A stretch of 64,000 nt of DNA from Gibbula magus (taxonomy: Eukaryota > Mollusca > Gastropoda > Trochida > Trochidae): the NCBI GenBank assembly GCA_936450465.1, contig OW388296.1:10537867-10601866 (forward strand), given 5' to 3'. Position numbers and translations under genes: made by a program. How positions within the stretch are numbered: position 1 is the stretch's first letter; every line of letters starts with the position of its first letter. This document shows, piece by piece, positions 26,248-55,287 of this stretch. The notes under the pieces were generated by a model. It ran no database searches. It was not told the origin of the DNA and saw nothing but the letters and a program-made list of their open reading frames with translations.

Positions 26248-26288
26248 CGCTAACTTCACAGACCCTCAGAGGGTCTGTGAAGTTAGCG
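26248..26288. repeat. 41-bp palindrome at the left tip
   Basis: The arm GCTAACTTCACAGACCCTC (26249-26267), one A, and its exact complement (26269-26287) form a hairpin, extended by one more C/G pair on the outside. The outward-facing half is identical to the sequence at the far right tip of the structure (~55,268-55,287). The left tip therefore carries the terminus in both orientations. Confidence 0.9.
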
Positions 26289-26552
26289 AACAGTTCCTTA
26301 TTCCTTATTCCCTATTCAAAATGTGAAGTTAGCATACAGTTCCTTATTCCTTATTCCCTATTCAAAATGTGAAGTTAGCATACAGTTACTTATTCCTTAT
26401 TCCTTATTCAAAATGTGAAGTTAGCATACAGTTACTTATTCCTTATTCCTTATTCAAAATGTGAAGTTGGCAAACAGTTACTTATTCCTTATTCCCTATT
26501 CAAAATGTGAAGTTGGCGAACAGTTACTTATTCCTTATTCAATTTTTTAGCA
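26277..26552 (+). repeat. Six 46-bp subterminal repeats, left arm
   Basis: Units begin GTGAAGTTAG or GTGAAGTTGG at 26277, 26323, 26369, 26415, 26461 and 26507, an exact 46-bp period. Each contains CAGTTACTTATTCC or CAGTTCCTTATTCC and ends TATTCAAAAT. The last unit is truncated. Confidence 0.95.
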
Positions 26553-26693
26553 ATTCACGCTTGTTCGTAGGTTATTATTTAATATTTAAGACTGCAAACA
26601 ACAAAAACGTTCTTTTCTTGTGTGCCGGTAGTTTAAAACTAAACGCAGAAAGCCCACAGCGTTGTACACAGCTGAACCGAGCGCTCCACGAGC

Positions 26694-26722
26694 TATAAAT
26701 AGCACGCAGTCGATTCAACATG
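26694..26722 (+). promoter_or_regulatory. Inward-facing TATA promoter, left arm
   Basis: A consensus TATA box (TATAAAT at 26694-26700) lies in a GC-richer segment conserved in the other arm. ATG GCG TCG follows at 26720, about 26 bp downstream, so a transcript would start close to that ATG. In this arm the frame stops after nine codons. The first AATAAA downstream is at 27039-27044, in the first satellite unit, so a transcript of about 320 nt is predicted. Promoter activity is inference. Confidence 0.55.
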
Positions 26723-26891
26723 GCGTCGCTTCAATCTGTTGCTGTTTAAATCAAATCAAAGATAGATTCCATGTCAGCACATAGAGATTTGAATACAATA
26801 AACAAATGTTAAGTTTAACTCAAAAGCTCATGTGAGGAGTAACAGTAGTTTATAAACGACCGGGGACGTGCTCCCCGAACATCGAAATAAA

Positions 26892-29800
26892 GGTCAATCT
26901 GAATCCGTTGCTGAGAGTGTGAAGTTAGTTACTTATTCGGTATTGGACATTTCTGTCGCTGGCACCCGTTTCGGATTACATAGTTTTATTTATGAATCAG
27001 AACATGTAAGCTCCGTCTCTAGGGTACATTTCAGCTGTAATAAAGTTTTAGTTACGGCCTTGAACTAGCGCTGTGGACTCATCATAGGTCAATCTGAATC
27101 CGTTGCTGAGAGTGTGAATTTGGTTACTTATTCGATATTGGACATTTCTGTCACTGGCATCCGTTTCAGAATATATAGGTTTATATACGAATCAGCACAT
27201 GTTAGCTCCGTCTCAAGGGTACATTTTAGCTATAATAAACTTTTAGTTACGGCCTTGAACGTGCGTTGTGGGCTCGTCATAGGTCAATCTGAATCCGTTG
27301 CTGAGAGTGTGAAGTTGGTTACTTATTCGATATTGGACATTTCTGTCACTGGCATCCGTTTCAGAATATATAGGTTTATATACGAATCAGCACATGTTAG
27401 CTCCGTCTCAGGGGTACATTTTAGCTATAATAAAGTTTTAGTTACGGCCTTGAACTAGCGCTGTGGGCTCGTCATAGGTCAATCTGAATCCGTTGCTGAG
27501 AGTGTGAAGTTGGTTACTTATTCGATATTGGACATTTCTGTCACTGGCATCCGTTTCAGAATACATAGGTTTATATACGAATCAGCACATGTTAGTTCCG
27601 TCTCAAGGGTACATTTTAGCTATAATAAAGTTTTAGTTACGGCCTTGAACTAGCGCTGTGGGCTCGTCATAGGTCAATCTGAATCCGTTGCTGAGAGTGT
27701 GAAGTTGGTTACTTATTCGATATTGGACATTTCTGTCGCTGGCACCCGTTTCAGAATACATAGGTTTATATACGAATCAGCACATGTTAGCTCCGTCTCA
27801 AGGGTACATTTTAGCTATAATAAACTTTTAGTTACGGCCTTGAACCAGCGCTGTGGGCTCGACATAGTCAATCTGAATCCGTTGCTGAGAGTGTGAAGAT
27901 AGTTACTTATTCGATATTGGACATTTCTGTCGCTGGCACCCGTTTCAGAATACATAGGTTTATATACGAATCAGCACATGTTAGTTCCGTCTCAAGGGTA
28001 CATTTTAGCTATAACAAAGTTTTAGTTACGGCCTTGAACCAGCGCTGTGGGCTCGACATAGTCAATCTGAATCCGTTGCTGAGAGTGTGAAGTCAGTTAC
28101 TTATTCGATATTGGACATTTCTGTCGCTGGCACCCGTTTCAGAATACATAGGTTTATATACGAATCAGCACATGTTAGTTCCGTCTCAAGGGTACATTTT
28201 AGCTATAATAAAGTTTTAGTTACGGCCTTGAACTAGCGCTGTGGGCTCGTCATAGGTCAATCTGAATCCGTTGCTGAGAGTGTGAAGTTGGTTACTTATT
28301 CGATATTGGACATTTCTGTCACTGGCATCCGTTTCAGAATATATAGGTTTATATACGAATCAGCACATGTAAGCTCCGTCTCAAGGGTACATTTTAGCTA
28401 TAATAAAGTTTTAGTTACGGCCTTGAACTAGCGCTGTGGGCTCGTCATAGGTCAATCTGAATCCGTTGCTGAGAGTGTGAAGTTGGTTACTTATTCGATA
28501 TTGGACATTTCTGTCACTGGCATCCGTTTCAGAATACATAGGTTTATATACGAATCAGCACATGTTAGTTCCGTCTCAAGGGTACATTTTAGCTATAATA
28601 AAGTTTTAGTTACGGCCTTGAACTAGCGCTGTGGGCTCGTCATAGGTCAATCTGAATCCGTTGCTGAGAGTGTGAAGTTGGTTACTTATTCGATATTGGA
28701 CATTTCTGTCGCTGGCACCCGTTTCAGAATACATAGGTTTATATACGAATCAGCACATGTTAGCTCCGTCTCAAGGGTACATGTTAGCTATAACAAAGTT
28801 TTATTTACGGCCTTGAACGTGCGTTGTGGGCTCGTCAAAGGTCAATCTGAATCCGTTGCTGAGAGTGTGAAGTTAGTTACTTATTCGATATTGGACAATT
28901 CTGTCGCTGGCACCCGTTTCAGAATACATAGGTTTATATACGAATCAGCACATGTTAGCTCCGTCTCAAGGGTACATTTTAGCTATAATAAACTTTTAGT
29001 TACGGCCTTGAACTAGCGCTGTGGGCTCGTCATAGGTCAATCTGAATCCGTTGCTGAGAGTGTGAAGTTGGTTACTTATTCGATATTGGACATTTCTGTC
29101 ACTGGCATCCGTTTCAGAATATATAGGTTTATATACGAATCAGCACATGTAAGCTCCGTCTCAAGGGTACATTTTAGCTATAATAAAGTTTTAGTTACGG
29201 CCTTGAACTAGCGCTGTGGGCTCGTCATAGGTCAATCTGAATCCGTTGCTGAGAGTGTGAAGTTGGTTACTTATTCGATATTGGACATTTCTGTCACTGG
29301 CATCCGTTTCAGAATACATAGGTTTATATACGAATCAGCACATGTTAGTTCCGTCTCAAGGGTACATTTTAGCTATAATAAAGTTTTAGTTACGGCCTTG
29401 AACTAGCGCTGTGGGCTCGTCATAGGTCAATCTGAATCCGTTGCTGAGAGTGTGAAGTTGGTTACTTATTCGATATTGGACATTTCTGTCGCTGGCACCC
29501 GTTTCAGAATACATAGGTTTATATACGAATCAGCACATGTTAGCTCCGTCTCAAGGGTACATTTTAGCTATAATAAACTTTTAGTTACGGCCTTGAACCA
29601 GCGCTGTGGGCTCGACATAGTCAATCTGAATCCGTTGCTGAGAGTGTGAAGTTAGTTACTTATTCGATATTGGACATTTCTGTCGCTGGCACCCGTTTCA
29701 GAATACATAGGTTTATATACGAATCAGCACATGTTAGTTCCGTCTCAAGGGTACATTTTAGCTATAACAAAGTTTTAGTTACGGCCTTGAACCAGCGCTG

Positions 29801-31617
29801 TGGGCTCGACATAGTCAATCTGAATCCGTTGCTGAGAGTGTGAAGTCAGTTACTTATTCGATATTGGACATTTCTGTCGCTGGCACCCGTTTCAGAATAC
29901 ATAGGTTTATATACGAATCAGCACATGTTAGTTCCGTCTCAAGGGTACATTTTAGCTATAATAAAGTTTTAGTTACGGCCTTGAACTAGCGCTGTGGGCT
30001 CGTCATAGGTCAATCTGAATCCGTTGCTGAGAGTGTGAAGTTGGTTACTTATTCGATATTGGACATTTCTGTCACTGGCATCCGTTTCAGAATATATAGG
30101 TTTATATACGAATCAGCACATGTTAGCTCCGTCTCAAGGGTACATTTTAGCTATAATAAAGTTTTAGTAACGGCCTTGAACTAGCGCTGTGGGCTCGTCA
30201 TAGGTCAATCTGAATCCGTTGCTGAGAGTGTGAAGTTAGTTACTAATTCGATATTGGACATTTCTGTCGCTAGCACCCGTTTCAGAATACATAGGTTTAT
30301 ATAAGAAGCAGCACATGTTAGCTCCGTCTCAAGGGTACATTTTAGCTATAATAAAGTTTTAGTTACGGCCTTGAACGTGCGTTGTGGGCTCGTCAAAGGT
30401 CAATCTGAATCCGTTGCTGAGAGTGTGAAGTTAGTTACTTATTCGATATTGGACATTTCTGTCGCTGGCACCCGTTTCAGAATACATAGGTTTATATACG
30501 AATCAGCACATGTTAGCTCCGTCTCAAGGGTACATGTTAGCTATAACAAAGTTTTATTTACGGCCTTGAACGTGCGTTGTGGGCTCGTCAAAGGTCAATC
30601 TGAATCCGTTGCTGAGAGTGTGAAGTTAGTTACTTATTCGATATTGGACAATTCTGTCGCTGGCACCCGTTTCAGAATACATAGGTTTATATACGAATCA
30701 GCACATGTTAGCTCCGTCTCAAGGGTACATTTTAGCTATAATAAACTTTTAGTTACGGCCTTGAACTAGCGCTGTGGGCTCGTCATAGGTCAATCTGAAT
30801 CCGTTGCTGAGAGTGTGAAGTTAGTTACTTATTCGATATTGGACATTTCTGTCGCTGGCACTCGTTTCGGAATACATAGGTTGATATATGAATCAGCACA
30901 TGTTAGCTCTGTCTCTAGGGTACATTTCAGCTGTAACAAAGTTTTAGTTACGGCCTTGAACTAGCGAAGTGGACTCGTCATAGGTCAATCTGAATCCGTT
31001 GCTGAGAGTGTGAAGTTAGTTACTTATTCGATATTGGACATTTCTGTCACTGGCACCCGTTTCAGAATACATAGGTTTATATAAGAAGCAGCACATGTTA
31101 GTTCCGTCTCAAGGGTACATTTTAGCTATAATAAAGTTTTAATTAGGGCCTTAACTAGCGCTGTGGGGTCGACATAGGTCAATCTGAATCCGTTGCTGAG
31201 AGTGTGAAGTTAGTTACTTATTCGATATTGGACATTTCTGTCGCTGGCACTCGTTTCGGAATACATAGGTTGATATATGAATCAGCACATGTTAGCTCTG
31301 TCTCTAGGGTACATTTCAGCTGTAACAAAGTTTTAGTTACGGCCTTGAACTAGCGAAGTGGACTCGTCATAGGTCAATCTGAATCCGTTGCTGAGAGTGT
31401 GAAGTTAGTTACTTATTCGATATTGGACATTTCTGTCACTGGCACCCGTTTCAGAATACATAGGTTTATATAAGAAGCAGCACATGTTAGTTCCGTCTCA
31501 AGGGTACATTTTAGCTATAATAAAGTTTTAATTAGGGCCTTAACTAGCGCTGTGGGGTCGACATAGGTCAATCTGAATCCGTTGCTGAGAGTGTGTAGTT
31601 AGTTACTTATTCGATAT
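26892..31617 (+). repeat. Left satellite array, ~25 units of 194/195 bp
   Basis: Unit starts (at the GTG of GTGTGAAGTTAG) fall at 26919, 27114, 27309 and so on to 31593, mostly 195 bp apart. Units are 194 bp where CGTCATAGGTC is shortened to CGACATAGTC. A nine-unit higher-order repeat of about 1,753 bp is visible: 27699 pairs with 29452, 27893 with 29646, and 28672 with 30425. A two-unit repeat covers the inner end (30,815-31,593). One frame is open for about 65 codons per unit and occasionally across two units (27114-27458, 28672-29016, 30371-30769), because the TAG at the unit end is lost in some variants. I regard this as a by-product of the unit sequence. Confidence 0.95.
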
Positions 31618-32120
31618 AAGTATGTACTACACATGTACACACACACATATATACACACGTACTTACTTCGTATGTGTAGACACATATGTATGAGTAGGCA
31701 CATATATAATCATATGCACGTATATCTCTTTTCGCATGCATGCACTTACTTATGATTACGTACTGGAGTACCTTTGCGTAGATACGTACGTATGCATACG
31801 CATGTACAAAATCGAAAGCATGTATATCTACTTAGTTACAATACGTAGCACGTATGCATCCGTAAGTAAGTGAACGTGTACATATCTGCTTACGCACACA
31901 CAGACAAATGCACGTATGTATGTTGCGCACAAAGTTAATTGTAAGGACGTACATCTGCTTGCGCATGCAAGGACAAAGGCACGTACGCAAGTACATATGC
32001 ATAGGCACGTTCACAATCGTACCCATGTAATCTTCTTACGCTCACAGGGACACAACCACGTACGCATTACCTTACGTACGAATGAGTAGGTACGAACGTA
32101 TACTTACGCAATCGTTCGCA
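31618..32120. repeat. Alternating ACGT-rich tract, left
   Basis: About 500 bp dominated by TACGTACG, GCATGCATGC, CACACACATATA and CGTATGCATACGCATG-like runs with no exact period. The matching tract at 49,700-49,930 lies just inside the other arm. Alternating purine-pyrimidine sequence of this kind can adopt Z-DNA or cruciform structures. Confidence 0.8.
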
Positions 32121-33417
32121 TGTGGACGACACCCATAGCCTCACTGACGTATAATAATAACTCAGTGATGAGATTTCTATCTTGACAATTAACATGTAAA
32201 AAGAAATGCCAACAGAGCATAAATAACAATCCAATTCATTTTATTAACAAAAGTATTAACTTGTGCAAGTGATACATAACGGGGAAACAACTAATTGTTT
32301 TTAAAACAGATTGGAGATGAGTTGTTTATACAATAAATAGAGTTGATAGTCAAAGGTTGAATAGCTAATTAAGTGGAATGAATAGAGACTGCATGAAGGA
32401 TTAGCAAGGTGATTGGAAGCCATTTGAATGATTTTACAATAGATGAAATAGATGTATACAGGGAAAAGTAAGTTGATTAAAATCAAATACTTTTTTCAAT
32501 AAAAAAAAAGTTTACACCTTCATGCAAAAATGTTATGTTAAGAATTTTTTAATATGATGACAATTTATACAAAGATCAGCATGACATTACTTGACTTTCA
32601 ACTATAAAGTTTGACTGATTGATTTAATCAAAAATTTCAGCTCTTTAAAGTCATTGGGTTTGGAGAAGAAGAAGTTTACGGATGGAAGCCATGTCATGCC
32701 ATGAGCACATGAACTAAACATACAGATTACAAAATGCTTTTCTACAGTTAATTATATTGTCATCGCATTGCTTCTTCTTCAAATTCAATATATGGTCGTT
32801 AATCAAAACTCAATAGTAAAGGAATAACTATGTTGACACAAGATCAGCAAACGTTCACAAAGTTATTTCAAATTATCTATAAACGGACTTCATCTCACTT
32901 CCAAAATTGAATATTTTAAGAACAGTTATGAATAAACTAGGTCTGGTCACGGACTTAAATTATGTAATTTAAGTCCGTGGTCTGGTTAACATTCAAACCT
33001 ACACAATAAGGGATGATAACAATTCTTTAAGAAAGTGACATAAATCATTAATAATGACTGTTTGAAAATATACTGTCATATTGTGCTAGAAATTAACACT
33101 GTAAAAGCTTTATCACCTTAATGCCCTAGCCCTGACATATATTTATTTCCTGAATCACTTTGCAATAGTCAGAGTGACAGTCTGTGTTTTTATCTTTACC
33201 AGTCATTGGAGAAAAATATATCAAAATTAACAATTTCTTTAATTTCTGGATAATAGACATTATAGATTATCAAGTCTCGTAGTTTTATTTCTAGGTAATA
33301 AATACTAAAACAGGTTATGTTTAAAATCTAAATGCAGATTTAATTTATGAATTTTATTTCAAAGCCACAAATCTTATCTCGTACATGACAAAAGTCCAAT
33401 ATAATATACCTATAAAT
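32121..33417. other. Non-coding, inner loop; small hairpin
   Basis: AT-rich sequence downstream of the minus-strand gene. A perfect 15-bp hairpin with a 2-bp loop (CACGGACTTAAATTA and its complement) lies at 32948-32979. Confidence 0.5.
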
Positions 33418-33865
33418 TAAGGCTGGATATTGTGGCAAAATTCATATTGCGATATATTGGGATATACAGGACACATATTGCAATAATACTGCGATATATT
33501 GAATGACTTCTACATTGAGCTTTTATACATCGTTATGCGATTTAAACATGAAATATTTGATAAAATGCCTTTCAGATCTTATAAACTATATACAACAAGT
33601 TATTAAGGTAAATATGTAAGCAAAGTCTAATGATATTTACATAAAAAAATGTCTCCCATCATTTGTCCAACACATATTCCTGCACATCAAACATGTTTTG
33701 GAGAATTAAACCATGTGTCTGTGCCTAAAAGGAATATTTTAAACTTAATTTTACTTGAAATGCATTGGTGCGATATATTGCGATATCACAAATCATATTG
33801 CAATTATTGCAATACACACTTTGTACCGATATATACCGGTATATCGATAATATTGCACAGCCCTA
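33418..33865. mobile_element. hAT-type MITE, 448 bp, with 8-bp target-site duplication
   Basis: The element begins TAAGGCTGGATATTG and ends ATTGCACAGCCCTA, with interior GCGATATATTGCGATAT runs. CTATAAAT is perfectly duplicated at both flanks (33410-33417 and 33866-33873). An 8-bp duplication with TAGGGCTG-type ends is characteristic of hAT MITEs. Confidence 0.9.
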
Positions 33866-34084
33866 CTATAAATATGATAAATTTCTAAAACAATTCATGT
33901 ACGGATATTCTGTTGGTTACAGGATCAAATATTAAAAAGCTTTTTAAATGGCAAAGTCTGATTATGATAGTACATAGTTATGAAATGAAGAAAATGATTC
34001 AATTCTTTTTCAGTTCAATTTCTTACCATAAGTAATGGAGGACTGTCAAAATGCCTTAAAAATGTTTAATTTGAATACAACAAG

Positions 34085-35037
34085 TAGTTGTCACTAAGGT
34101 GACATGATCCCCCGCCGAAAATTAATACTTCAAAATTTAAAAATAATGTCAAGATCAGCAAAATCGACTGTCAAACATGTCGAAAAAGTCAAAGCTCCAC
34201 TGTGACCTTGACAAAAATGTCAAGGTCATCAAATCTAATCAGCCCTTTGTCTTTCCTAGGAAGTGCATTATGTAAGATATGATGAAATTCCAGTGAATGG
34301 TTCTTGAGATATCCCGCTGACAACCTTTACTTGTACATTAACATGTCGAAAAATTTTAAATTCCACTGTGACCTTGAGAATAATGTCAAGGTCACCATAA
34401 TCTAATCAGTCCTTTTGCTTTGTGTAAGATATGATGAAATTCCGGTGAATGGTTCTTGAGATATTCTGCTGACAACCTTTACATGTACATTAACATGTCG
34501 AAAAATTCAAAGTTCCACTGTGACCTTGAAAATAATGTCAAGGTCACCAAAATCTAATCAGCCCGTCGTCTTCCCCAGAAGGTGCTTTGTGTAAGAAATG
34601 ATGGAATTCCGGTGAATGGTTCTTGATATCCCGCTGACAAGCTTTACATGTACATTAACATGTCGAAAAATTCAAAGTTCTTCTGTGACCTTGAAAATAA
34701 TGTCAAGGTCACCAAAATCTAATCAGCCCGTCGTCTTTCCTTGGAGAAGCTATGTGTAAAATATGAAGAGAATCCAGAGAATGGTTAATGAGATATCCCG
34801 CTGACAAGGGTAAAATAACAAAGTCTTGTTGTGACCTTGAAATGAAGGTCAAGGTCACAAACCTATGTAAGAACATTACTCTTCCCATGATGAACCTATA
34901 TGCAAAATATGAAAAGAATCCAGTGAATAGTATTTGAGTTATTCCATTTCGTACGGACGTACGTACGGACGGAAGGACGGACGCAGCCGAAGACTATATC
35001 CCCCGCTTCGCGCTAAACGCGCGGCGTGGGATAATAT
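34085..35037. mobile_element. Pearl-like element with ~4-5 core repeats
   Basis: The 5' end has GACATGATCCCCCGCCG. Core units of about 165-190 bp follow, each with TGTGACCTTGA, TGTCAAGGTCACC and GAGATATCCCGCTGACAA. The element then has a GGAC/GTACGGAC run (~34,955-34,985) and ends TATCCCCCGCTTCGCGC..GGGATAAT. It is non-coding and lies just beyond the 3' end of the minus-strand gene. Confidence 0.75.
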
Positions 35038-35131
35038 ACATATCAAGAAAATATTTGATTCTAGCAAGCCAAATCATTCATGTATTTCCCTTCGGTCTTC
35101 ATGAAAGTTGCTCCGATGCAGCATCATAATG

Positions 35132-35137
35132 TTTATT
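35132..35137 (-). terminator. Polyadenylation signal of minus-strand gene
   Basis: AATAAA on the minus strand, about 50 bp downstream of the stop codon at 35186-35188. This supports the adjacent frame as a terminal exon. Confidence 0.65.
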
Positions 35138-35185
35138 TTTTAAATGCACGGTCTGAGGTATTATCAATGTGACCGTCATCAACAT

Positions 35186-35312
35186 TCATTCAGCTTGTAT
35201 CTCTTTTTTCTTTGAACTGGGGATGAAATATACTGGATCTGCAGAAGTGAGTCTTTTGTAGTCCTCCATGGGCAGCTTGTAGAATTGGCATCCTTGAAGA
35301 AATCCACATACT
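35186..35312 (-). CDS. Terminal coding exon of spliced gene, unknown family
   Basis: A strong acceptor (TTTATTTGCAG) precedes 35312. The exon opens by completing an arginine codon from the upstream exon and then reads VCGFLQGCQFYKLPMEDYK, later TSADPVYFIPSSKKKEIQAE, and a TGA stop. About 42 residues are encoded, with two cysteines near the start and a lysine-rich end. Phase agrees exactly with the donor at 37,426 (AG + A = Arg). The family is not recognised. The gene lies wholly within the loop of the giant inverted structure and runs toward the left arm. Confidence 0.65.
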
Positions 35313-35549
35313 CTGCAAATAAAGTGTTATAGATAAAGTGAGTGATAGAGACAGGATTTCATAAAATAATCAATCAGAGAGCCCATGTTAATATTTTATT
35401 GTGGCCAATATCTGTAGACACAATTTATAGTTTTCAAATGTACCTAGATTTTATAATGAAATCATTCAGAGTCAAGCAATCATATTGTCCAAAGAAAAAG
35501 ACAAACAACAGGAAAAGTTGTAATTATGTTAAACTTATTCATAAAAAGA

Positions 35550-36200
35550 ACTAGAGCCATTGGCTTTGTAGCTCATCTGTAGACACAATTTATAATTTTC
35601 AAATGGATCTAGATTATATAATGAAATAATTCAGACAAGAGTAAAGCAACCATAATGTCCAAAGAAATTGACAAACAGGAAAAAGTTGTCATAATGTTAA
35701 ACTTATTCATATATAAACAAGTACCATAGGCTCTGTAGCTCAACAGGCTTAAACAACACACTAAATAGGTTTCAAACTGTAAATTTTCCAGAAGTATTTA
35801 TCAGAAGTATAAAAAACACTCAAGTAGTTTTCATAATGGAAAAGAAGATGAAAATATATATCTTTATGTTGTGACCTCTGTGTACCCATTTTTTAGGCCA
35901 CTGTGGCACAGAGTCACCAAATATACTATTTACTGAATTTAGAATCCCCAAAGGCTAAGGAGTCTGTACGCAACATTTCAGCTTTCTATGGCTTTAGGTG
36001 CCAGAGATGATGTAAAAAGGTTTTTCGGTCATGACCCCTGTGACCCATATTTGGGGCCACAAGGTCACCAAACCTATAATCTCATTGGCCAAGGAGTCCA
36101 AGTGTACATAAAATTTCAGCTCTCAGGCTCTATATTCATTGGTTCTTAAGAAGTCTAAGAAGCTAAAAGATTACGGACAGTCACAGATGGACGGACCAAT
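35550..36200. mobile_element. Pearl-type element (GTAGCTCATC family)
   Basis: Begins near AGAGCCATTGGCTTTGTAGC. The core units contain GACCCATATTTGGGGCCACA, GGTCACCAAA and GCCAAGGAGTC. It ends near a short GGACGGACC motif. Non-coding. Confidence 0.55.
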
Positions 36201-36391
36201 GCAATATCACAATACTTAAGCAATGATAGACAATTAGCTATTGTAGACAATAGTAATAAATAGTCCATTTGAATAGGGTTATTTCCATGACCAAAGCACA
36301 CAATTTATATTTTTACCCACAAGGAATTGTACTTATGGTACTTTTTTGTACTGTTTAGGTACCCGTTTAAACAGCTGGGTGGACTGAGTGC

Positions 36392-36841
36392 TAAGGCTGT
36401 GCAATATTATTGCAGTACCAATATATTGCAATACAGACTTGTGCAATACGTGTATTGCAATACGATTTTCATATCGCAATATATTGCACCAACAAATATG
36501 AAGTAAAATGTATTCATTCATCTTGTAAAAGGCACATTTACTGGCTTAACTTGTATTAGAAAATTATTTTCAAGTGCTAGAATGTGTGTTGGACTGTATT
36601 ACAAATGATCTTTTTAAAGATCTTAAAGTAATTTTGTCAAAGGTGTCTTGTTTAAACTGCCAAAAAATTGAATGTAGAGTTTATTAAGTATGTTGCAATG
36701 TCATTGGCACTAGTTAATATGGTCTTTATAGAAATATCTCATTGTCAGAGGATCTTACAATATATTGTGGTACGTATTGCAATACATTACAGTTCAGCAA
36801 TACATATCGCAATACAAAGATTGAGGCAATACACAGCCCTA
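36392..36841. mobile_element. hAT-type MITE, 450 bp, second copy
   Basis: Starts TAAGGCTGTGCAATATTATT and ends CACAGCCCTA. It is the same family and nearly the same length as 33418-33865, in the opposite orientation. GAGTGC occurs immediately outside both ends, offset by one base, which suggests a worn 8-bp duplication. It is inserted in older repeat DNA and lies in the intron before the last exon of the minus-strand gene. Confidence 0.75.
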
Positions 36842-36849
36842 CGAGTGCA

Positions 36850-37250
36850 TATGGATGAAGTGCCTTGTCCAGGGATACAAAACAGTATGAGGCACCAGGC
36901 CACATGTTTGATGTCTCAATATGCTAACACCTACACCACTGTGGTCCAAAATAATAATTTGAGTCATGTCATCCCTATCTCACAAAATCTACAATTTAGA
37001 ATCCCCATTAGCCAAGGAGTCTGTACACAACGTTTCAGCTCTCTTAACCTTATGGAACTGGAGAAGAAGTTGAAAATAGGTTTTTAAGGTTGAAATCTAC
37101 AATTTAGAATCCCCATTAGCCAGGAGTTTGTATGTAAAATTTCAGCTCTCTAGAGTCATTGGTTCTGGAGAAGAAGTCGAAAAAGCGAAAAGTTTACAGG
37201 TGGATGGACGGACGCCGGTATCCATGCCATGCCTTAAGCCACCGGGCACA
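36850..37250. mobile_element. Pearl-type element remnant
   Basis: About two core units (AATCTACAATTTAGAATCCC, ATTAGCCA, AGGAGT) followed by AAAAGTTTACAGGTGGATGG and a short ACGG run, ending ATGCCATGCCTTAAGCC. A plus frame crossing it and the neighbouring MITE (36668-37087) is a composite of repeats, not a gene. Confidence 0.6.
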
Positions 37251-37615: not shown

Positions 37616-37679
37616 CTTTTGACAAAATATTTTAATATTATTCAACGATGAAGAAGTGTAAGATTTAAAAAATATAGCC

Positions 37680-44695: not shown

Positions 44696-44759
44696 CTCTT
44701 GCTATGATTGAGTATTTCAAAGGCAGGGGTATAAAACTAACCTCAAACATAAAGTAGTC

Positions 44760-45195
44760 TGCAGGGCTAGTCGTTCAGATTTTTACTAGCCCAATAGGAG
44801 TATCACTAGTAACCAGTATCTGCGAGTAATCTAACAGTTATAGAATTTTAAGTTTGAACTACAAAGGCAAATATTTTCCCCACTTAAATCATTCACATCT
44901 GATGTACCCATAGTTGCTGATAAAGACAAGAATCTCTACTCATACTTTGTGTCTTCCTTAATGATTCAGGAATATTTAGAGGCCCACAGGGCTAGCAGAA
45001 GCTAGTATTTGCTAGCATGACATCATTTTTATTTGACTCGGGCCGAAGGACTACGGTAATGTTAATTTCTAGCCCTGAATGTGATTCAGAAATTGTTCTG
45101 GCCCACAGGGCTAGAAGTATCCAAATTTTGATAGCCAAAGGTATTTTTTTACTAGCCTCGGGCTGAAGGACTAGTGTTTCTAGCCCTGATGTCAG
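44760..45195. repeat. CTAGCCCTG-type short repeats
   Basis: Two ~105-bp direct units (about 44,985-45,080 and 45,100-45,190) share GCCCACAGGGCTAG, CTCGGGC(C/T)GAAGGACTA and TTCTAGCCCTGA. A weaker third copy precedes them at ~44,765. Confidence 0.65.
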
Positions 45196-45349
45196 TTACA
45201 ATGTAGATTGTCAATTGACCACAAATTCTACACACAAGATTCTAGCTTATACGAATGTAAATTCTGGAGAGTGATGAGCTAGAAATGAGGACATATATTG
45301 GCTTTATCAGATCAATAATATTAAACAGACTACAGTAATATAAACATAC

Positions 45350-45525
45350 TTGAGCATGTCAGGACTGGTACAATCTGTCATCATCCCTCTGATAAGCGTC
45401 GTCTCACAACACTGTTGTAGGGGTCAACATGAGTCTGTCTGTATTGTCCTTGTTATTCTGACCACTGGAACCGTTTGCACCCATCTAGTTTATACCTGGG
45501 CCTGCAGGTACTGCAACTAAAAATA
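45350..45525 (-). other. GC-richer block in intron, possible exon
   Basis: This block stands out from the AT-rich intron. On the minus strand it has acceptor-like TTTAGTTGCAG and donor-like CCAG|GTATAA and TT|GTGAGA motifs. No frame runs through it, so it may be a micro-exon (15 nt between the first two signals, phase-compatible), an untranslated exon or a repeat. Evidence is weak. Confidence 0.2.
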
Positions 45526-45599
45526 CACATATTGTATATTATTAGTTTCAGATTTTTTACAAAATGTTCATTCTCTCAAAGAAATCTAGAATTATGTTT

Positions 45600-46010
45600 T
45601 TAACTAGAAATATGTGCATGTGATGCACTGTGATGTCCCCCGCTCCAACTTTCAATCCAACTAAGTCATATTACCCTTATTTTTCACTTATGCTAAGCAC
45701 TAAGTTCAATACTGCATTAATAACGAGAAATAAAAACTAGAAAGTGTTTTTACCCGTAAAAACAGATGTCTCCCCCTTCCTCAAATGCTCGAAACCTCTA
45801 AACAATACTATCATAAAGCACCATTAATGTTCTCTGTATAATTCAACTTGAATAAATAACCTATCAACTCCACATTAATAAAAAAAAATTAAATTATCTC
45901 TAACCCCCAAAAGGCACATCTACACGATATGGAGAGACAGTATACCAAGTTTGGTGATGATTGGTCACACAGTTTTAGAGATCTGCTCCGGAAACGAATA
46001 CACCCTTGAA
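45600..46010. repeat. Truncated pearl-like repeat
   Basis: GATGTCCCCCGCTCC at the start, then TTTGGTGATGATTGGTCACA and GAGATCTGCTCCGGAAACGA, match the style of the elements at 41-42 kb, but there is no microsatellite and no end. Confidence 0.4.
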
Positions 46011-46432
46011 AAAGACTAAGTCCAAATCGATGAGATGCCCATTTAGCAAATGCCTCAATCAGATTTCTTGGAATATTCTAATTATGAAAGAATGCTATAT
46101 TTATACTAATTACTTAAATCATAGATATTCTTTACAAGTCAAGGTATATGAAGATTACCCTTCACACATCTACCCTTATGCCTTGATATATTGACATATC
46201 ATTATTCTATTAGAATTTACAAATAATACAATTTATGACATTTTATGATTTCTTAATTGTTGTTAATTGACTTCCAAAATGTTTGCAAATCAAATATTTT
46301 AAAACTTATTTCAGAATTTCACTGCACGCAATTAATTTATGAATTGACACATTCAACAAATGAAGTCTGAATACATGAAACCTGGCATTGGAAATGATGT
46401 CGTTGACTCAATGCGGGCTCTCTGAGTCTCAC

Positions 46433-46540
46433 CTCTCCCAGTAACGCTGGCAGGCAGGTGGAAACTTGTCAACTCAAGATTCGTTTCCCCTGGTCCTATG
46501 GCGCCGTCCTGCGATGACCTTCGACAGTGTCGTTTATTAC
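46433..46540 (-). CDS. Internal coding exon of the same gene
   Basis: A 108-bp exon bounded by an acceptor (TTTGTTCCAG) and a consensus donor (GAGAG|GTGAGA), with phase 1 at both ends. It encodes about 36 residues, including RHCRRSSQDGAIGPGETNLE followed by LTSFHLPASVTGR. Joined to the exon at 37,615 it gives a continuous frame with a glycine at the junction. GC content is well above the flanking intron. The upstream partner exon is uncertain. The family is not recognised. Confidence 0.6.
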
Positions 46541-46685
46541 CTGGAACAAATATTGAATTGACATAAGTATTTGATAACATGGGATCCTATAGGAAAACAT
46601 ATTGTTGCAATACTTTTGGTACGTCACTGTAATGTACTTTTAGCTCTACGTATGGGACAGTAGATAATCGCCAATTATAAAAAAT

Positions 46686-48112
46686 AGAGCCATGGTCTCT
46701 GTAGCTCATCAGTACTTGAATGATTTATTATTTAAGATTGAAGATCTGAATAAATAGAACCATTTGCTCTGTTATCCTTTTGCATGCTTCATAGTTTTAA
46801 GTATTTTATCATACAAACCAAGGGTCACAAAATGTGATGACTATTTGCTAAGTAAGACAAACAGACCAGGTACTAACTGCTAATTCAATAAAATTTATTT
46901 TATATTTTTTAATTTAATACTTACTCTGCCAGATAGGAGGTTCATTCAATTATTAAATGCAGTCAACATGCTGTTAAAAGAAGGCTCAGACAAAGTAACT
47001 TAAAAGCATAAACATGCAAACCATTAATTTCAAAACAGAAAAAAAGAACATCTTTCTATGAAACAAACACTAGCTTGCAGCTAAAAATGCACCCAGTCAA
47101 CATCCCCGCCCTCACCCACCCGACCCCAATCAACCCCATCCCACACCCTCTATCCCCCCAACCCCTAACCCACACCAGCTTACTGTAACCCAATACCCCA
47201 TATCACTGTTCCTCTTGTATCTAATTATAGCATTATGCAATCCTATGTACAACACTGACTAAACCAACTAAGGTAAGTAAAAGAATCCTGAATTTAAAAT
47301 AGCTCTGACGTTTTTAATTTAAGAGGTAAAAGTATGAAACTTTCAAGTCTTGGTCTCCTTCATACAAAGATGAGATTTGCCACATTTTAGGTTCTTAACA
47401 TTATTAGTTCCTGGAGTGAAATTAAAGGAGTTTAAAAACAACCTTCAACGCCCATATTTGAGGAGGCATTTTTTCCAAATGAACAAACTAAGTTGTCCAC
47501 ATCTACATGTTTATAAAGATGCTTTTCTGAAAATTGTAACTTTCTGTATCAAATGGTTTTTTAGGAGAAGTTGTTTAAAGAGTCTAGGGTGGACCCCCCT
47601 GGCACGCCCATATTTGACAGGGGGTCAGGTCGGATTATTTGGGGCCACAGGTCACCAAATCTACAATTTAGAATCTCCATTGGCTTCAGAGTCTGGACAC
47701 AATAATACAGCCTTCTAAATCAATAAAATGTTTTCTTTACGGAGAAGAAGACGAAAATAGATTTTTCGGTCATGGCCTGTGAGGCCCTTATTTGGGGCCA
47801 CAGGGTCACCAATACTACAATTTAGAATCTCCATTGGCTAAAGACTATGCACACAATATCTCAGCCTTCTAAGTATTTTTGTTCTTAAGAAGAAGATGAA
47901 AATAGGACTTTAAGTCATGGCCTGTAAGGCCCTTATTTGGGGCCACAGGGTCATCAAATCTACAATTTAGAATCTCCATTGGCTAAAGACTATGCACACA
48001 ATATTAGAGCCTTCTAGGTCTATTTGTTCTGGAGAAGAAGATGAAAACAGGTTTTTGCCATGCCATGCCATAATTAAGCCCACCGGGCCTTTCAGGCCTG
48101 ATGAGCTAAAAA
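46686..48112. mobile_element. Pearl-type element(s), GTAGCTCATCAG family
   Basis: Starts CATGGTCTCTGTAGCTCATC and ends GGCCTTTCAGGCCTGATGAG, the same ends as 42088-42965. Three core units (~47,620-48,050) carry GGGGCCACAGG, CAAATCTACAATTTAGAATC and CTCCATTGGCT. The left part includes a C-rich, CCCACCC-like stretch near 47,100-47,180. A plus frame at 47377-47718 runs into the cores and is not a gene. Confidence 0.6.
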
Positions 48113-48900
48113 TTGTCCATGGCGAAAAAAAAATTAGGTGAACCGAAATAATTCTGTCACAATTATTTTACAGCAGATAATTGAAAAGAAAATTTTACTT
48201 GAGAAATAAAACAGTATTGAAAATTAAACTAGATTCTAGTTATTTTCAAGTATAGGCCTATCTATTTTTTAACAATGAACTATTAAACATATTCATGAAT
48301 GTCATGCATACGTGTATAGGCTTCTGCACAATGCTGTCGGGTAAAGCTACGCACCTTAGAGATAACTGACCTGTAAAAACATGTCAAAAATCTATCTCAA
48401 GATGAAGGTTTGGGCTTTTATTAATCCCATTAATGTAGAAATTTTAAGTAGACTTGTTAAATACATTGACACTGAAAGTAATCAGATGACTATACCCCCC
48501 TATTTCCATAGGTCAACAATTAAGTGTAGGCTAAAGATTTATACGCAGTCAGAGTTTGATTATATCATACACATGGCAGTAGAGCAGAGATATTTTGGTT
48601 TCCTATGACATTTGGTATTGGATAGAGCAAAATGTTTTATAATGTCTTATTTGTTGCAATTTATTTAAATTTTCAGTAATTACTAATTTGTCACTGTTTT
48701 GGTCAATCAACATCATTCTAACAAACAATAATTGAAGTCAATACAGTCTCTACATTTGTTTATGTTCTATTTTTTGCCAGTGCGACTGCGTATATCTTTA
48801 CTGTACCCTCCGCGTATCTTTACCCGACACAACTGTACATCAAAATATACGTCACCTATCATCCAAGTGCAATCCCAATGGCATGATCCTCTCTTGTCTT
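48113..48900. other. Intronic or promoter-proximal, no gene seen
   Basis: A plus frame of 75 codons (48381-48608) has fairly protein-like composition but no splice context or recognised family. The segment near 48,780-48,840 is richer in CpG. Confidence 0.4.
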
Positions 48901-49260
48901 GATCAAACTTTTGACTCAAGTGGAGCAAGTCGGTCTGTCGCTGTCAGCTGAATTTCTTTGCTGACCAGTGGAATGTCGGGCATCCTTGAATAGCTTTGGG
49001 CTGGCATTCTGGTAGATCTACAACCGAAAGTCTGGATTCCTCTCGCACTTGGCTTGTTGCGTCAGTGAAATGACTCGATGATGTGACGTCATTGTCGGAA
49101 ATAGCCGAAGTAGATCGGACAAATTCATTTGTTTGGACAAGCTGTAAGTGGTAACACAGTGCAGCAGACAACAAAGGGACGGTCTTCGACGCTACATTGA
49201 TAGTCGAAGGGAGACAAATCAAACAGCTGACGTCTGTGGCAGAAGTGCAAGTGCACCCTG
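48900..49260 (-). other. CpG-rich block, probable 5' end of the gene
   Basis: All three minus frames are open over long stretches here, and CpG is far more frequent than nearby. One frame (49222-48944) runs 92 codons without an ATG. Another contains MPDIPLVSKEIQLTATDRLA (from an ATG at 48983) and ends at 48903. A strong acceptor-like TTACCACTTACAG lies at about 49,145. The position upstream of the exon at 46,540 suggests a first exon and promoter, but no donor with the required phase 1 was found, so the start cannot be fixed. Confidence 0.35.
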
Positions 49261-49699
49261 ACAGATCATTTTAGTAGATAAAATAACTAATTTCTATCAC
49301 TTTGTTACCTTTTATGACCGAAGTTTATTTATTAAATATGATTGACAAAATTAACCTCAATGTTTGAGACCTCAGGTTATGATCAATAATGACAATATTA
49401 AATAATTCCAGATAATCAAAAACAAAATTAGGTCAAAGAATATGTCAGATACCCCAAAATATTATGTAATCTGTGTATATAAAATATTGGCCGGGACATA
49501 GGCCTATTTTAAATTGTGTAAATATTTATTGCATACAGTATATTTTTTAAATTTACACATTTTCCGATCACATTTTTTTTTCTTATAGAAATATTTAAAT
49601 CAATATTTATGAAACGTTAAGTTTAATTCCTTTGACATAAAACATTTGACATAATTGAACTGAATTATGTTATTGTCTGACATTTTAATCATTTTAATA
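49261..49699. other. Non-coding, no feature seen
   Basis: AT-rich sequence between the putative gene 5' end and the right ACGT tract. Confidence 0.45.
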
Positions 49700-49930
49700 T
49701 TAAGCAGGCTTTACGCACACAGGGACACACGCACGTACGTATGCATACGCAAGTACGTACGAAAGCGTACGCAAGAACGCAATTGCACGCACGTAGGTCC
49801 TAATCTGCTGACGTATGCACATACGCACGCACTAACTTACGAATGCGTATCCATGCGTACGCACATACACAGGCCTATGCGTAAGCACGTACATAATCGT
49901 ACGCACGTAATCCTGTTACATATGTAGGCT
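49700..49930. repeat. Alternating ACGT-rich tract, right
   Basis: ACGTACGTATGCATACGCAA and similar runs abut the right satellite array. It shares CACAGGGACACA and CACGTACG phrases with the left tract (near 32,047-32,065), there in the same, not inverted, orientation. It is about half the length of the left tract. Confidence 0.8.
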
Positions 49931-52900
49931 ACGTATGTATTGTGAAACGGGTGCCAGCGACAGAATTGTCCAATATCGAATAAGTAACTCACTTCACACT
50001 CTCAGCAACGGATTCAGATTGACTATGTCGAGCCCACAGCGCTGGTTCAAGGCCGTAACTAAAACTTTGTTATAGCTAACATGTACCCTTGAGACGGAGC
50101 TAACATATGCTGATACTTATATAAACCTATGTATTGTGAAACGGGTACCAGTGACAGAAATGTCCAATATCGAATAAGTAACTCACTTCACACTCTCAGC
50201 AACGGATTCAGATTGACCTATGACGACCCCACAGCGCTAGTTCAAGGCCCTAATTAAATCTTTATTATAGATGAAAGGTACCCTAGAGACGGAGCTAACA
50301 TGTGCTGGTTCTTATATAAACCTATGTATTCTGAAACGGGTGCCAGCAAAAGAAATGTCCAATATCGAATAAGTAACTCACTTCACACTCTCAGCAACAG
50401 ATTCAGATTGACCTATGACGAGCCCACAGCCCTAGTTCAAGGCCTTAACTAAAACTTTATTAGAGCTGAAATGTACCCTTGAGACGGAGCTAACATGTGC
50501 TGATTCGTATATAAACCTATGCATTCTGAAACGGGTGCCACTAAAAGAAATGTCCAATATCGAATAAATACTAACTTCACACTCTCAGCAACGGATTCAG
50601 ATTGACTATGTCGAGCCCACAGCGCTGGTTCAAGGCCGTAACTAAAACTTTGTTATAGCTAAAATGTACCCTTGAGACGGAGCTAACATGTGCTGATACT
50701 TATATAAACCTATGTATTCTCAAACGGGTACCAGCTACAGAAATGTCCAATATCGAATAAGTAACTGACTTCACACTCTCAGCAACGGATTCAGATTGAC
50801 TATGTCGAGCCCACAGCGCTGGTTCAAGGCCGTAACTAAAACTTTGTTATAGCTCACATGTACCCTTGAGACGGAGCTAACATATGCTGATACTTATATA
50901 AACCTATGTATTGTGATACGGGTACCAGCTACAGAAATGTCCAATATCGAATAAGTAACTCACTTCACACTCTCAGCAACGGATTCAGATTGACTATGTC
51001 GCGCCCACAGCGCTGGTTCAAGGCCGAAACTAAAACTTTGTTATAGCTAACATGTACCCTTGAGACGGAGCTAACATGTGCTGATACTTATATAAACCTA
51101 TGTATTCTGAAACGGGTACCAGCTACAGAAATGTTCAATATCGAATAAGTAACTCACTTCACACTCTCAGCAACGGATTCGGATTGACCTATGACGAGCC
51201 CACAGCGCTGGTTCAAGGCCGTAACTAAAAGTTTGTTATAGCTAAAATGTATCCTTGAGACGAAGCTAACATGTGCTGATTCTTATATAAACCTATGTAT
51301 TGTGAAACGGGTGCCAGCGACAGAATTGTCCAATATCGAATAAGTAACTAACTTCACACTCTCAGCAACGGATTCGGATTGACCTATGACGAGCCCACAG
51401 CGCTGGTTCAAGGCCGTAACTAAAAGTTTGTTATAGCTAAAATGTATCCTTGAGACGGAGCTAACATGTGCTGCTTCTTATATAAACCTATGTATTGTGA
51501 AACGGGTGCCAGCGACAGAATTGTCCAATATCGAATAAGTAACTCACTTCACACTCTCAGCAACGGATTCAGATTGACTATGTCGCGCCCACAGCGCTGG
51601 TTCAAGGCCGTAACTAAAACTTTGTTATAGCTAAAATGTACCTTTGAGACGGAGCTAACATATACTGATACTTATATAAACCTATGTATTCTGAAACGGG
51701 TGCCAGTGACAGAAATGTCAAATATCGAATAAGTAACTCACTTCACACTCTCAGCAACGGATTCGGATTGATCTATGACGAGCCCACAGCGCTGGTTCAA
51801 GGCCGTAACTAAAACTTTGTTGTAGCTAAAATGTACCCTTGAGACGGAACTAACATGTGCTGATTCTTATATAAACCTATGTATTGTGAAACGGGTGCCA
51901 GCGACAGAATTGTCCAATATCGAATAAGTAACTAACTTCACACTCTCAGCAACGGATTCGGATTGACCTATGACGAGCCCACAGCGCTGGTTCAAGGCCG
52001 TAACTAAAAGTTTGTTATAGTAAAATGTATCCTTGAGACGAAGCTAACATGTGCTGATTCTTATATAAACCTATGTATTGTGAAACGGGTGCCAGCGACA
52101 GAATTGTCCAATATCGAATAAGTAACTCACTTCACACTCTCAGCAACGGATTCAGATTGACTATGTCGCGCCCACAGCGCTGGTTCAAGGCCGTAACTAA
52201 AACTTTGTTATAGCTAAAATGTACCTTTGAGACGGAGCTAACATATACTGATACTTATATAAACCTATGTATTCTGAAACGGGTGCCAGTGACAGAAATG
52301 TCAAATATCGAATAAGTAACTCACTTCACACTCTCAGCAACGGATTCGGATTGATCTATGACGAGCCCACAGCGCTGGTTCAAGGCCGTAACTAAAACTT
52401 TGTTGTAGCTAAAATGTACCCTTGAGACGGAACTAACATGTGCTGATTCTTATATAAACCTATGTATTGTGAAACGGGTACCAGCTACAGAAATGTCCAA
52501 TATCGAATAAGTAACTCACTTCACACTCTCAGCAACGGATTCAGATTGACTATGTCGCGCCCACAGCGCTGGTTCAAGGCCGTAACTAAAACTTTGTTAT
52601 AGCTAACATGTACCCTTGAGACGGAGCTAACATATGCTGATACTTATATAAACCTATGTATTCTGAAACGGGTGCCAGTGACAGAAATGTCCAATATCGA
52701 ATAAGTAACTCACTTCACACTCTCAGCAACGGATTCGGATTGACCTATGACGAGCCCACAGCGCTGGTTCAAGGCCGTAACTAAAAGTTTGTTATAGCTA
52801 AAATGTATCCTTGAGACGAAGCTAATATGTGCTGATTCTTATATAAACCTATGTATTGTGAAACGGGTGCCAGCGACAGCATTGTCCAATATCGAATAAG

Positions 52901-54695
52901 TAACTCACTTCACACTCTCAGCAACGGATTCAGATTGACTATGTCGCGCCCACAGCGCTGGTTCAAGGCCGTAACTAAAACTTTGTTATAGCTAAAATGT
53001 ACCTTTGAGACGGAGCTAACATATACTGATACTTATATAAACCTATGTATTCTGAAACGGCTGCCAGTGACAGAAATGTCAAATATCGAATAAGTAACTC
53101 ACTTCACACTCTCAGCAACGGATTCGGATTGATCTATGACGAGCCCACAGCGCTGGTTCAAGGCCGTAACTAAAACTTTGTTGTAGCTAAAATGTACCCT
53201 TGAGACGGAACTAACATGTGCTGATTCTTATATAAACCTATGTATTGTGAAACGGGTACCAGCTACAGAAATGTCCAATATCGAATAAGTAACTCACTTC
53301 ACACTCTCAGCAACGGATTCAGATTGACTATGTCGCGCCCACAGCGCTGGTTCAAGGCCGTAACTAAAACTTTGTTATAGCTAAAATGTACCCTTGAGAC
53401 GGAGCTAACATATGCTGATACTTATATAAACCTATGTATTCTGAAACGGGTACCAGCTACAGAATTGTCCAATATCGAATAAGTAACTCACTTCACACTC
53501 TCAGCAACGGATTCAGATTGACTATGTCGCGCCCACAGCGCTGGTTCAAGGCCGTAACTAAAACTTTGTTATAGCTAAAATGTACCCTTGAGACGGAGCT
53601 AACATATGCTGATACTTATATAAACCTATGTATTCTGAAACGGGTACCAGCTACAGAAATGTCCAATATCGAATAAGTAACTCACTTCACACTCTCAGCA
53701 ACGGATTCAGATTGACCTATGACGACCCCACAGCGCTAGTTCAAGGCCCTAATTAAATCTTTATTATAGATGAAAGGTACCCTAGGGACGGAGCTAACAT
53801 GTGCTGGTTCTTATATAAACCTATGTATTGTGAAACGGGTGCCAGCGACAGCATTGTCCAATATCGAATAAGTAACTCACTTCACACTCTCAGCAACGGA
53901 TTCAGATTGACCTATGACGACCCCACAGCGCTAGTTCAAGGCCCTAATTAAATCTTTATTATAGATGAAAGGTACCCTAGAGCCGGAGCTAACATGTGCT
54001 GGTTCTTATATAAACCTATGTATTGTGAAACGGGTGCCAGCGACAGCATTGTCCAATATCGAATAAGTAACTCACTTCACACTCTCAGCAACGGATTCGG
54101 ATTGACTATGTCGCGCCCACAGCGCTGGTTCAAGGCCGTAACTAAAACTTTGTTATAGCTAAAATGTACCTTTGAGACGGAGCTAACATATGCTGATACT
54201 TATATAAACCTATGTATTCTGAAACGGGTGCCAGTGACAGAAATGTCCAATATCGAATAAGTAACTAACTTCACACTCTCAGCAACGGATTCAGATTGAA
54301 TATGTCGAGCCCACAGCGCTGGTTCAAGGCCGTAACTAAAACTTTGTTATAGCTCACATGTACCCTTGAGACGGAGCTAACATATGCTGATACTTATATA
54401 AACCTATGTATTCTGAAACGGGTACCAGCTACAGAAATGTCCAATATCGAATAAGTAACTCACTTCACACTCTCAGCAACGGATTCAGATTGACCTATGA
54501 TGAGCCCACAGCGCTAGTTCAAGGCCGTAACTAAAACTTTATTACAGGTGAAATGTACCTTAAAGACGGAGCTAACATGTTCTGATTCATATATAAACCT
54601 ATGTATTCTGAAGCGGGTGCCAGCGACAAAAATGTCCAATACCGAATAAGTAACTAACTTCACACTCTCAGCAACGGATTCAGATTGACCTTTAT
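49931..54695 (-). repeat. Right satellite array, ~25 units of 194/195 bp
   Basis: This is the same satellite unit as the left array in inverse orientation. The landmark CACACTCTCAGCAACGG recurs about every 195 bp from 49,995 to 54,661, by hand count 25 times, the same as on the left. Many units carry right-arm-specific variants such as CTGATACTTATATAAACC and a GCGCCC change. Multi-unit blocks are themselves repeated: the GATCTATGACGAGCCC unit recurs at about 51,770, 52,355 and 53,130. Confidence 0.95.
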
Positions 54696-54859
54696 TGCGA
54701 TGTTCGGGGATCACGTCCCCGGTCGTTTATAAACTATTGTTACAGCTCACATGAGCTTTTGAGTTAAACTTAACATTTGTTTATTGTATTCAAATCTCTA
54801 TGTGCTGACATGGAAGCTATCTTTGTTTTGATTTGGACAGCAACAGATTGAAGTGACGC

Positions 54860-54888
54860 CATGTTGAATCGACTGCGTGCTATTTATA
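54860..54888 (-). promoter_or_regulatory. Inward-facing TATA promoter, right arm
   Basis: The minus-strand TATAAAT box (54888-54882) and ATG GCG TCA (54862-54860) have the same spacing as in the left arm. Here the frame continues for about 30 codons (MASLQSVAVQ...), whereas the left arm stops after nine. The first minus-strand AATAAA is at 54543-54538, giving the same predicted ~320-nt transcript length. Confidence 0.55.
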
Positions 54889-55042
54889 GCTCGTGGAGCG
54901 CTCGGTTCAGCTATGCTCAACGCTGTGGGCTTTCTGCATTACGTTATAAATACCGGCACACAAGAAAAGAACGTTTTTGTCGTTTGCAGTCTTAAATATT
55001 AAATAATGAGCTACGAACAAGTGTGAATTGCTAAAAAATTGA

Positions 55043-55280
55043 AGTTCACATTTTGAATAGGGAATAAGGAATAAGTAACTGTTCGCTTACTTCACATTTT
55101 GAATAAGGAATAAGGAATAAGTAACCGTTCGCCAATTTCACATTTTGAATAAGGAATAAGGAATAAGTAACTGTATGCTAACTTCACATTTTGAATAAGG
55201 AATAAGGAATAAGTAACTGTATGCTAACTTCACATTTTGAATAAGGAATAAGGAATAAGGAACTGTGCGCTAACTTCACA
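55043..55280 (-). repeat. 46-bp subterminal repeats, right arm
   Basis: About six units of the left-arm 46-bp repeat in inverse orientation. Each reads CTTCACATTTTGAATA and AAGGAATAAGTAAC on the plus strand. The array ends with GTGCGCTAACTTCACAGACC at the tip. Confidence 0.92.
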
Positions 55281-55287
55281 GACCCTC

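Follow-up and report, generated by a model that had tools for sequence, protein, structure and literature searches.

We have identified a family of very large transposable elements in the gastropod mollusc Gibbula magus. One copy lies in the stretch of DNA analysed here, hereafter the window (64,000 nucleotides; assembly GCA_936450465.1, contig OW388296.1, positions 10,537,867 to 10,601,866 of the forward strand). The family is very probably a giant, non-autonomous foldback-type DNA transposon that is served by an enzyme acting in trans and that has spread as a chimera carrying a large interior segment, the cargo. The window copy (G000:C8:10564137-10593151) spans window positions 26271-55285 and is 29,015 bp long. 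A foldback-type mobile element of ~29 kb was the central claim of the original prediction, made from the letters of the window, and it is borne out by many further copies, by 9-bp target-site duplications (TSDs) and by relatives that have another loop or none. Elements of 23-41 kb form a natural family that has reached many sites recently with intact TSDs.

A dispersed family flanked by 9-bp duplications

The genome (1.47 Gb in 140 contigs) was searched with the element's tips and with pieces of the segment between its arms (the loop). Forty of 315 candidates were scored for the left tip and 40 of 316 for the right tip, and the resulting counts are lower bounds. Many of the left-tip matches scored had 98-100% identity, and the tip pattern of the family can be written GGGKCTGTGAAGTTAGC. 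Loop piece 45380-46620 was found in at least 27 places at 96-100% identity (40 scored of 3,198 candidates). Pairing of tips by position gave giant copies of ~23-41 kb. Eighteen of these, located on C1, C2, C3, C5, C8, C10, C13 and C15 and including the window copy, had both tips read, and 17 of the 18 are flanked by an exact 9-bp TSD. The 17 TSDs, 12 of them obtained by script and five by direct reading, all differ from one another (e.g. TCTGTAGGA, AGGAACTCG and ATTAGATTA). This count leaves out C16:16471665, which has a truncated left tip, five right ends for which no left tip was located, and an additional right end on C5, which is part of a tandem duplication. The original prediction had proposed a search of the host assembly with the tip, allowing that the structure might occur only once, and a search for TSDs and for copies with other loops; dispersed copies, TSDs and such relatives were all found. 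Its own alternative, an unusual inverted duplication, is rejected by the dispersed, TSD-flanked copies.

Three shorter relatives were located, and each is flanked by a 9-bp TSD. The copy on C6 (G000:C6:6697772-6703828, L017; TSD GTCAGCAAC) is 6 kb long and has no loop, its two satellite arms abutting. The copies at C7:53150102-53163478 (TSD ATTTAATGT) and C18:40169708-40183048 (TSD TGGGAATTG; together L018-L021) are 13 kb long, with the tip variant GGGGCTGTGAAG and unequal arms. Both have another interior of several kilobases, which lies in opposite orientation in the two copies and is 97-98% identical in the stretches compared. The hallmarks of foldback elements are thereby all represented, namely inverted arms of tandem repeats, dispersed copies flanked by TSDs, a variable number of repeats, and a middle that is variable or absent.

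The window copy, C1:87389810, C3:72682625 and C5:2182260 were read end to end, and the loops of the other copies are known from piece matches. All four share their four inner junctions (satellite to tract, tract to cargo, cargo to tract, and tract to satellite), differing only in single bases and in a 24-bp gap close to where the C3 tract begins; this points to one capture of the cargo. Comparison of the core interior (44640-47600) of the window copy with the other three gives 12 mismatches against C1 and 18 against C3, each over 2,962 columns, and 19 against C5 over 2,964 columns (aligned in two pieces). An insertion at 34081-35032 is present in the window copy and in C1 and is missing from C3 and C5, indicating that the whole unit moved.

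Layout of the window copy and history of its arms

The inverted arms extend over 26269-31617 and 55287-49973 and are 92.1% identical over 5,354 alignment columns. The original span of 26269 to 55287 therefore holds for the inverted arms and not for the exact ends, which comparison with other copies places at 26271 and 55285, the outer 'GA/TC' being flank. A 20-letter tip sequence matches three times in the window and not once in 100 shuffles. From the tip inward, each arm consists of the 17-bp GGGTCTGTGAAGTTAGC, 46-bp repeats, a unique segment of ~340 bp and a satellite array; arm-to-arm identity declines inward, from 94.9% (outer repeats) through 93.8% (unique segment) to 92.6% (satellite). 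The features of the window copy are as follows (tandem repeats marked TRF were delimited with that program).

26271-55285, no strand: whole element, 29,015 bp, giant family
26271-26287, plus: left tip GGGTCTGTGAAGTTAGC
55269-55285, minus: right tip, inverted GGGTCTGTGAAGTTAGC
26276-26540, plus: left 46-bp repeats, 5.8 copies (TRF)
55045-55280, minus: right 46-bp repeats, 5.1 copies (TRF)
26549-26890, plus: left non-repeat segment, with TATAAATA read inward by eye; identity to the right arm 93.8%; recurs in other copies
54692-55036, minus: right TATA-bearing segment, limits approximate
26891-31617, plus: left satellite array, 24.3 units of ~195 bp
49934-54691, minus: right satellite array, about 24.4 units (TRF 24.5) of ~194-195 bp
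31618-32123, plus: left ACGT-rich tract, probably not mirrored
49712-49933, plus: right ACGT-rich tract, best aligned direct to the left tract
32124-49711, no strand: cargo (loop), 17.6 kb, colinear with the interior of the CACTA-like family Y
34081-35032, no strand: insertion nested in the cargo, in the C1 copy and not in C3 or C5
41117-42083, no strand: insertion nested in the cargo, not in C1, C3 or C5; the interiors of C7 and C18 contain a related sequence of ~880 bp (93%)
26245-26270, plus: GTGCGCTAACTTCACAGACCCTCAGA, a 26-bp copy of the right junction of this element, interpreted as a left-end repair scar

The left end of the window copy is peculiar. A third copy of the tip adjoins it at 26248-26267, and the sequence GTGCGCTAACTTCACAGACCCTCAGA to the left of the tip is identical over 26 bp to the element's own right junction, five bases of the right flank included. 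We infer that this is the scar of a later repair that copied the right junction; insertion of the element beside an older remnant is the alternative. An origin of the extra tip from a palindromic hairpin is disfavoured, not disproved, by the five flank bases, since their inclusion favours a copied right junction. If the repair reading is true, the intact left junction would read TCAGAAATA next to GGGTC.

The repeats of the arms are related to each other. The 46-bp and 195-bp units have TGTGAAGTT...AGTTACTTATTC in common, with a score of 34 that was reached by none of 1,000 shuffles, and the motif points the same way in both. With at most one mismatch allowed, TGTGAAGTTAG was counted 30 times in one arm and 29 times in the other, never reversed, and never in the loop. 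Derivation of the promoter segment from the satellite was considered and dropped, as 107 of 1,000 shuffles reached the score. Following the TATA-bearing segment of the right arm, an open frame of 30 amino acids (MASLQSVAVQIKTKIASMSAHRDLNTINKC; window 54770-54862, minus strand) is present that is broken in the left arm; by eye, it is perhaps the remnant of an ancestral gene start.

Kinship among satellite units was analysed for 47 full units, 23 from the left arm and 24 from the right. The nearest relative lies in the same arm for 44 of the 47, and the outermost units, L01 and R01, are mutual nearest relatives. Units of the left arm are on average 0.049 apart and those of the right arm 0.071, against 0.078 for pairs taken across arms. 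This pattern indicates arms of common origin whose arrays were amplified separately. The left arm bears a recent block duplication of nine units, in which six of the eight pairs from 4/13 to 11/20 differ by 0-0.5%; pair 8/17 shows a difference of 1.5%, and units 9 and 18 lack close similarity. When units were paired by position, counting from the tip, the mean distance was 0.0754, only slightly below the 0.0784 of random pairing, and 3.9% of permutations were as low, so the equal length of the arrays was not simply inherited. Other giant copies that were read through have unequal arms, with 18.3 left and 38.4 right units in C1, 36.2 and 16.5 in C3 (the left array being 12.4 + 23.8 units, interrupted by other sequence), and 14.3 and 20.4 in C5. 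The short copies have 25.2 and 8.5 (C18), 21.5 and 12.2 (C7), and 6.2 and 18.3 (C6). Across the four giant copies read through, arms measure ~3.4-8.5 kb with 14-38 satellite units per arm. The nearly equal arms that had been put forward as a feature of the structure are a coincidence of the window copy.

The ACGT-rich tracts at the inner ends of the arms were aligned in both orientations. Directly aligned, they score 114 (300 shuffles: mean 60.5, maximum 89); inverted, they score 82 (300 shuffles: mean 51.3, maximum 75). The tracts are thus probably arranged directly and not as mirror images, on moderate evidence, because the inverted score also exceeds the shuffles and the tract is partly self-complementary. 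The mirror-image order described earlier accordingly stands for the tip, the 46-bp repeats (5.8 and 5.1 copies), the following segment and the satellite (24.3 and about 24.4 units), and fails, with that moderate evidence, for the ACGT tract.

Elsewhere in the window, positions 55820-57010 are richer in G+C and look, by eye, like the end of a retroelement, with AATAAA followed by a short tail ending TGTGACAC. The window contains no tRNA and no Rfam family at the gathering threshold, and an RNA gene was dropped as a candidate. Phage records searched with the left arm, and viral contigs searched with the tip and with the satellite core, gave no match, as expected for a eukaryote.

A cargo shared with a CACTA-like family

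When the right part of the loop served as query, with 40 of 627 candidates scored, at least ten places at 77-85% identity were also found. Among the more divergent relatives of the cargo is a second family, here called family Y, with copies of ~15.1-15.6 kb at G000:C12:16549368-16564937 (L026-L028) and C11:45131744-45146822 (L030, L082). Over the stretches compared, of 633 and 824 bp, the identity between these two is 99.5% and 99.8%, and they begin together at CACAGCAAAAATAACTTCATTTC. Their tips are CACAGCAAAAATAACTTC (CACAGC...), unrelated to those of the giant family, and both copies, the two with both ends read, have 3-bp duplications (TAA at C12, TGT at C11). The tip was seen on six further left ends, one of which reads TACAGC for CACAGC; right ends on C10 and C16 were not found in the stretches examined. 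Subterminal repeats of GGAAATGCAATGG are present. CACTA/EnSpm elements are characterized by CACWG-type tips and a 3-bp duplication. Judged by its tips, 3-bp duplications and subterminal repeats, family Y is CACTA-like.

The interior of the C12 copy is colinear with the loop of the window copy: 27 aligned pieces, together 6,682 columns at 84.0% identity, run from 49711 to 32129. No match in the window was found for the Y termini (about 770 and 610 bp), and the giant's motif is absent from the eight pieces of Y loci tested. Family Y and the window element are therefore unrelated in tips, subterminal regions and duplication length and colinear in their interiors. By its sequence, the 15-18-kb cargo is common to the foldback-type family and to a second transposon superfamily. 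The direct alignment of the ACGT tracts is as expected if the cargo entered a single tract and split it.

Two further loci bear related sequence. At G000:C14:67190039-67190860, a piece of the interior has 93% identity, a value below the 96-100% of the giant family and above the 82-85% of the Y-like group. At G000:C15:15661501-15667500 (L080, 2752-3421), a fragment from the right of the cargo is adjoined by an inverted copy of some of its own sequence, at 85-91% identity.

The original prediction placed a spliced gene in the loop. As a protein-coding gene this was not sustained: six-frame Pfam scans of the whole window loop gave nothing above the cut-off, no homologue of the candidate exon of 108 amino acids was found, and no frame stands out. 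In comparison with the 84%-identical relative Y, both strands yield matching short frames of similar identity, some of them free of stops, and the candidate exons at 48947-49270 and 46356-46586 have stops and gaps. With frames alike on both strands and both candidate exons broken, no coding gene is supported. Splice-like signals and locally well-conserved blocks remain on the minus strand of the loop, so a noncoding transcript is possible. An immunoglobulin (Ig)-domain gene was rejected as a candidate, as three sub-cutoff Ig matches all fall on a 171-bp tandem repeat (41308-41966); a copper-fist match in the C18 interior, also discarded, covered 14 residues and fell below the cutoff. That no transposase is visible, as the original prediction stated, is confirmed by the same Pfam scans of the loop.

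Mechanism, rival explanations and known systems

We propose that the arm motif TGTGAAGTT...AGTTACTTATTC provides putative binding sites for a transposase made elsewhere in the genome. From its arrangement, the motif is probably such a site. The enzyme would pair the two tips, excise the element and insert it with a 9-bp staggered cut; both the cut-and-paste mode and a Mutator-like (MULE) enzyme are suggested by the 9-bp duplication. The TSD length falls within the 8-11 bp given for the Mutator superfamily in the available part of PMC6446971, and the transposase is on this account probably of Mutator type. Stacked sites acted on in trans by such an enzyme would also fit the analogy with Tm1, Tetris and Galileo (see below). 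To judge from unit kinship and copy-number differences, the arm arrays grow and shrink independently, probably by unequal exchange. An ancestor would once have taken up the 15-18-kb cargo within an ACGT-rich tract, and this single chimera would then have spread to at least 18 sites.

Several observations weigh against this account. Domain scans of the window loop and of L018:5500-10000 within the C18 interior found no transposase. Duplications of 9 bp also occur outside Mutator, and the binding-site role of the motif is argued from its arrangement. The window copy lacks a 9-bp TSD, as the sole exception among the 18 giant copies. The C5 copy (G000:C5:2182260-2242620, L022-L025) appears to be partly duplicated in tandem over 33 kb: a second set of its interior matches and right end, bordered by an identical right flank, lies at an offset of 33,165 bp, so extra interior copies are not all transpositions. 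Lastly, C13:62886163 has loop piece 48100-49700 and no listed match to 45380-46620, so cargo content is not uniform among copies.

Other explanations were weighed against the same evidence. A one-off inverted duplication, or an assembly error in one arm, without any mobility, would suit the nearly equal arms of the window copy and the difficulty of assembling satellite arrays; it is scarcely credible, as both tips and an exact 9-bp duplication, different each time, are found in 17 further giant copies, and the 5-7% difference between arms and the clustering of satellite units by arm are not expected of a mis-joined copy. Very improbable, too, is an autonomous element whose loop encodes its own transposase in small exons. 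Splice-like signals, conserved minus-strand blocks and several short frames open in both families would agree with it, but no Pfam domain exceeds the cut-off in six frames, frames behave alike on both strands, and the candidate exons are broken against Y. Segments flanked by FB elements are known to undergo macrotransposition in Drosophila. A composite of two foldback elements that trapped a host segment is conceivable here, and the loop-less C6 copy shows that a foldback of the same family exists; we nevertheless regard it as improbable, because in the four copies read through each arm has one tip and an inner end at the ACGT tract, and the tracts align best directly, like one tract split by an insertion (moderate evidence). 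Satellite carriers of the Helentron type, as in oyster, are not known to have target-site duplications or long inverted arms, and were ruled out by the 9-bp duplications and 5-kb inverted arms.

More weight is due to the possibility that the cargo is a host locus taken up independently by the foldback family and by family Y, which we consider unlikely overall, if a serious candidate. The edges of the giant's cargo differ from Y's own ends, and the Y termini of ~770 and 610 bp without a window match are in keeping with it. Against it, no copy outside both families was identified among the 40 candidates scored per search, a survey that is not exhaustive: most places at 82-85% were unopened, and C14:67190265 (93%) and C15:15664252 (85%) are unassigned. 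A bolder proposal is that the interior is a transferable module moved by two unrelated superfamilies, possibly to the benefit of its carriers (e.g. through a noncoding transcript), with arms of ~30 sites each enabling a cut-and-paste enzyme to move units of 23-41 kb, a size ordinarily beyond its reach; we advance this as an unlikely speculation. A giant foldback-type transposon moved in trans remains our preferred reading.

No foldback of this kind in molluscs, and no giant, composite or captured equivalent, was found described in the titles and abstract openings of the open-access literature searched. Galileo, a foldback-like element of the P superfamily, has a P-type transposase and makes 8-bp duplications. 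Its long repetitive arms with multiple transposase binding sites offer a model for the repeats seen here, whereas no such cargo is mentioned in the available part of its description (PMC3688188). Giant copies with 14-38 units per arm and the same cargo and tips make the idea of stacked binding sites testable, and the arms illustrate a transposon end turning into satellite DNA. Tetris, a foldback element of Drosophila virilis, likewise has an outer domain followed by arm tandem repeats of ~220 bp that share a short stretch with it, 8-10-bp duplications, a repeat number that varies between copies and no transposase found; in the accessible portion of that report, its arms reach 1,735 bp and no large shared cargo is reported, compared with arms of ~3.4-8.5 kb here (PMC4079207). 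Tm1, a Mutator/Foldback family of root-knot nematodes, resembles our family in its composite inverted repeats with internal tandem motifs and its non-autonomous members with different interiors, and its TSDs are of 8-10 bp, mostly 9, according to the text available (PMC3169594). Our family differs in its ~23-41 kb size, multi-kilobase satellite arms and 15-18-kb cargo, and in that Tm1, in the same source, has a member encoding a Phantom-type enzyme while no transposase-coding member was found here.

A parallel for the cargo is offered by Pack-MULEs, which carry foreign DNA within Mutator-type ends and are moved in trans, as summarized in the available part of PMC6431247; here, the Mutator type, suggested by the TSDs, and the direction of capture are putative. 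According to the same review, 7 kb was the upper limit among the Pack-MULEs surveyed by Jiang et al. 2004, and DNA transposition loses efficiency above a cargo of ~6 kb, although artificial constructs of 100-200 kb have been moved (PMC6431247). The cargo of the family described here measures 15-18 kb by itself and doubles as the interior of another transposon family, which suggests large-scale exchange of modules between transposon superfamilies. Set beside the 7-kb maximum and the loss of efficiency above 6 kb, size and shared cargo are what make this family unusual among known systems.

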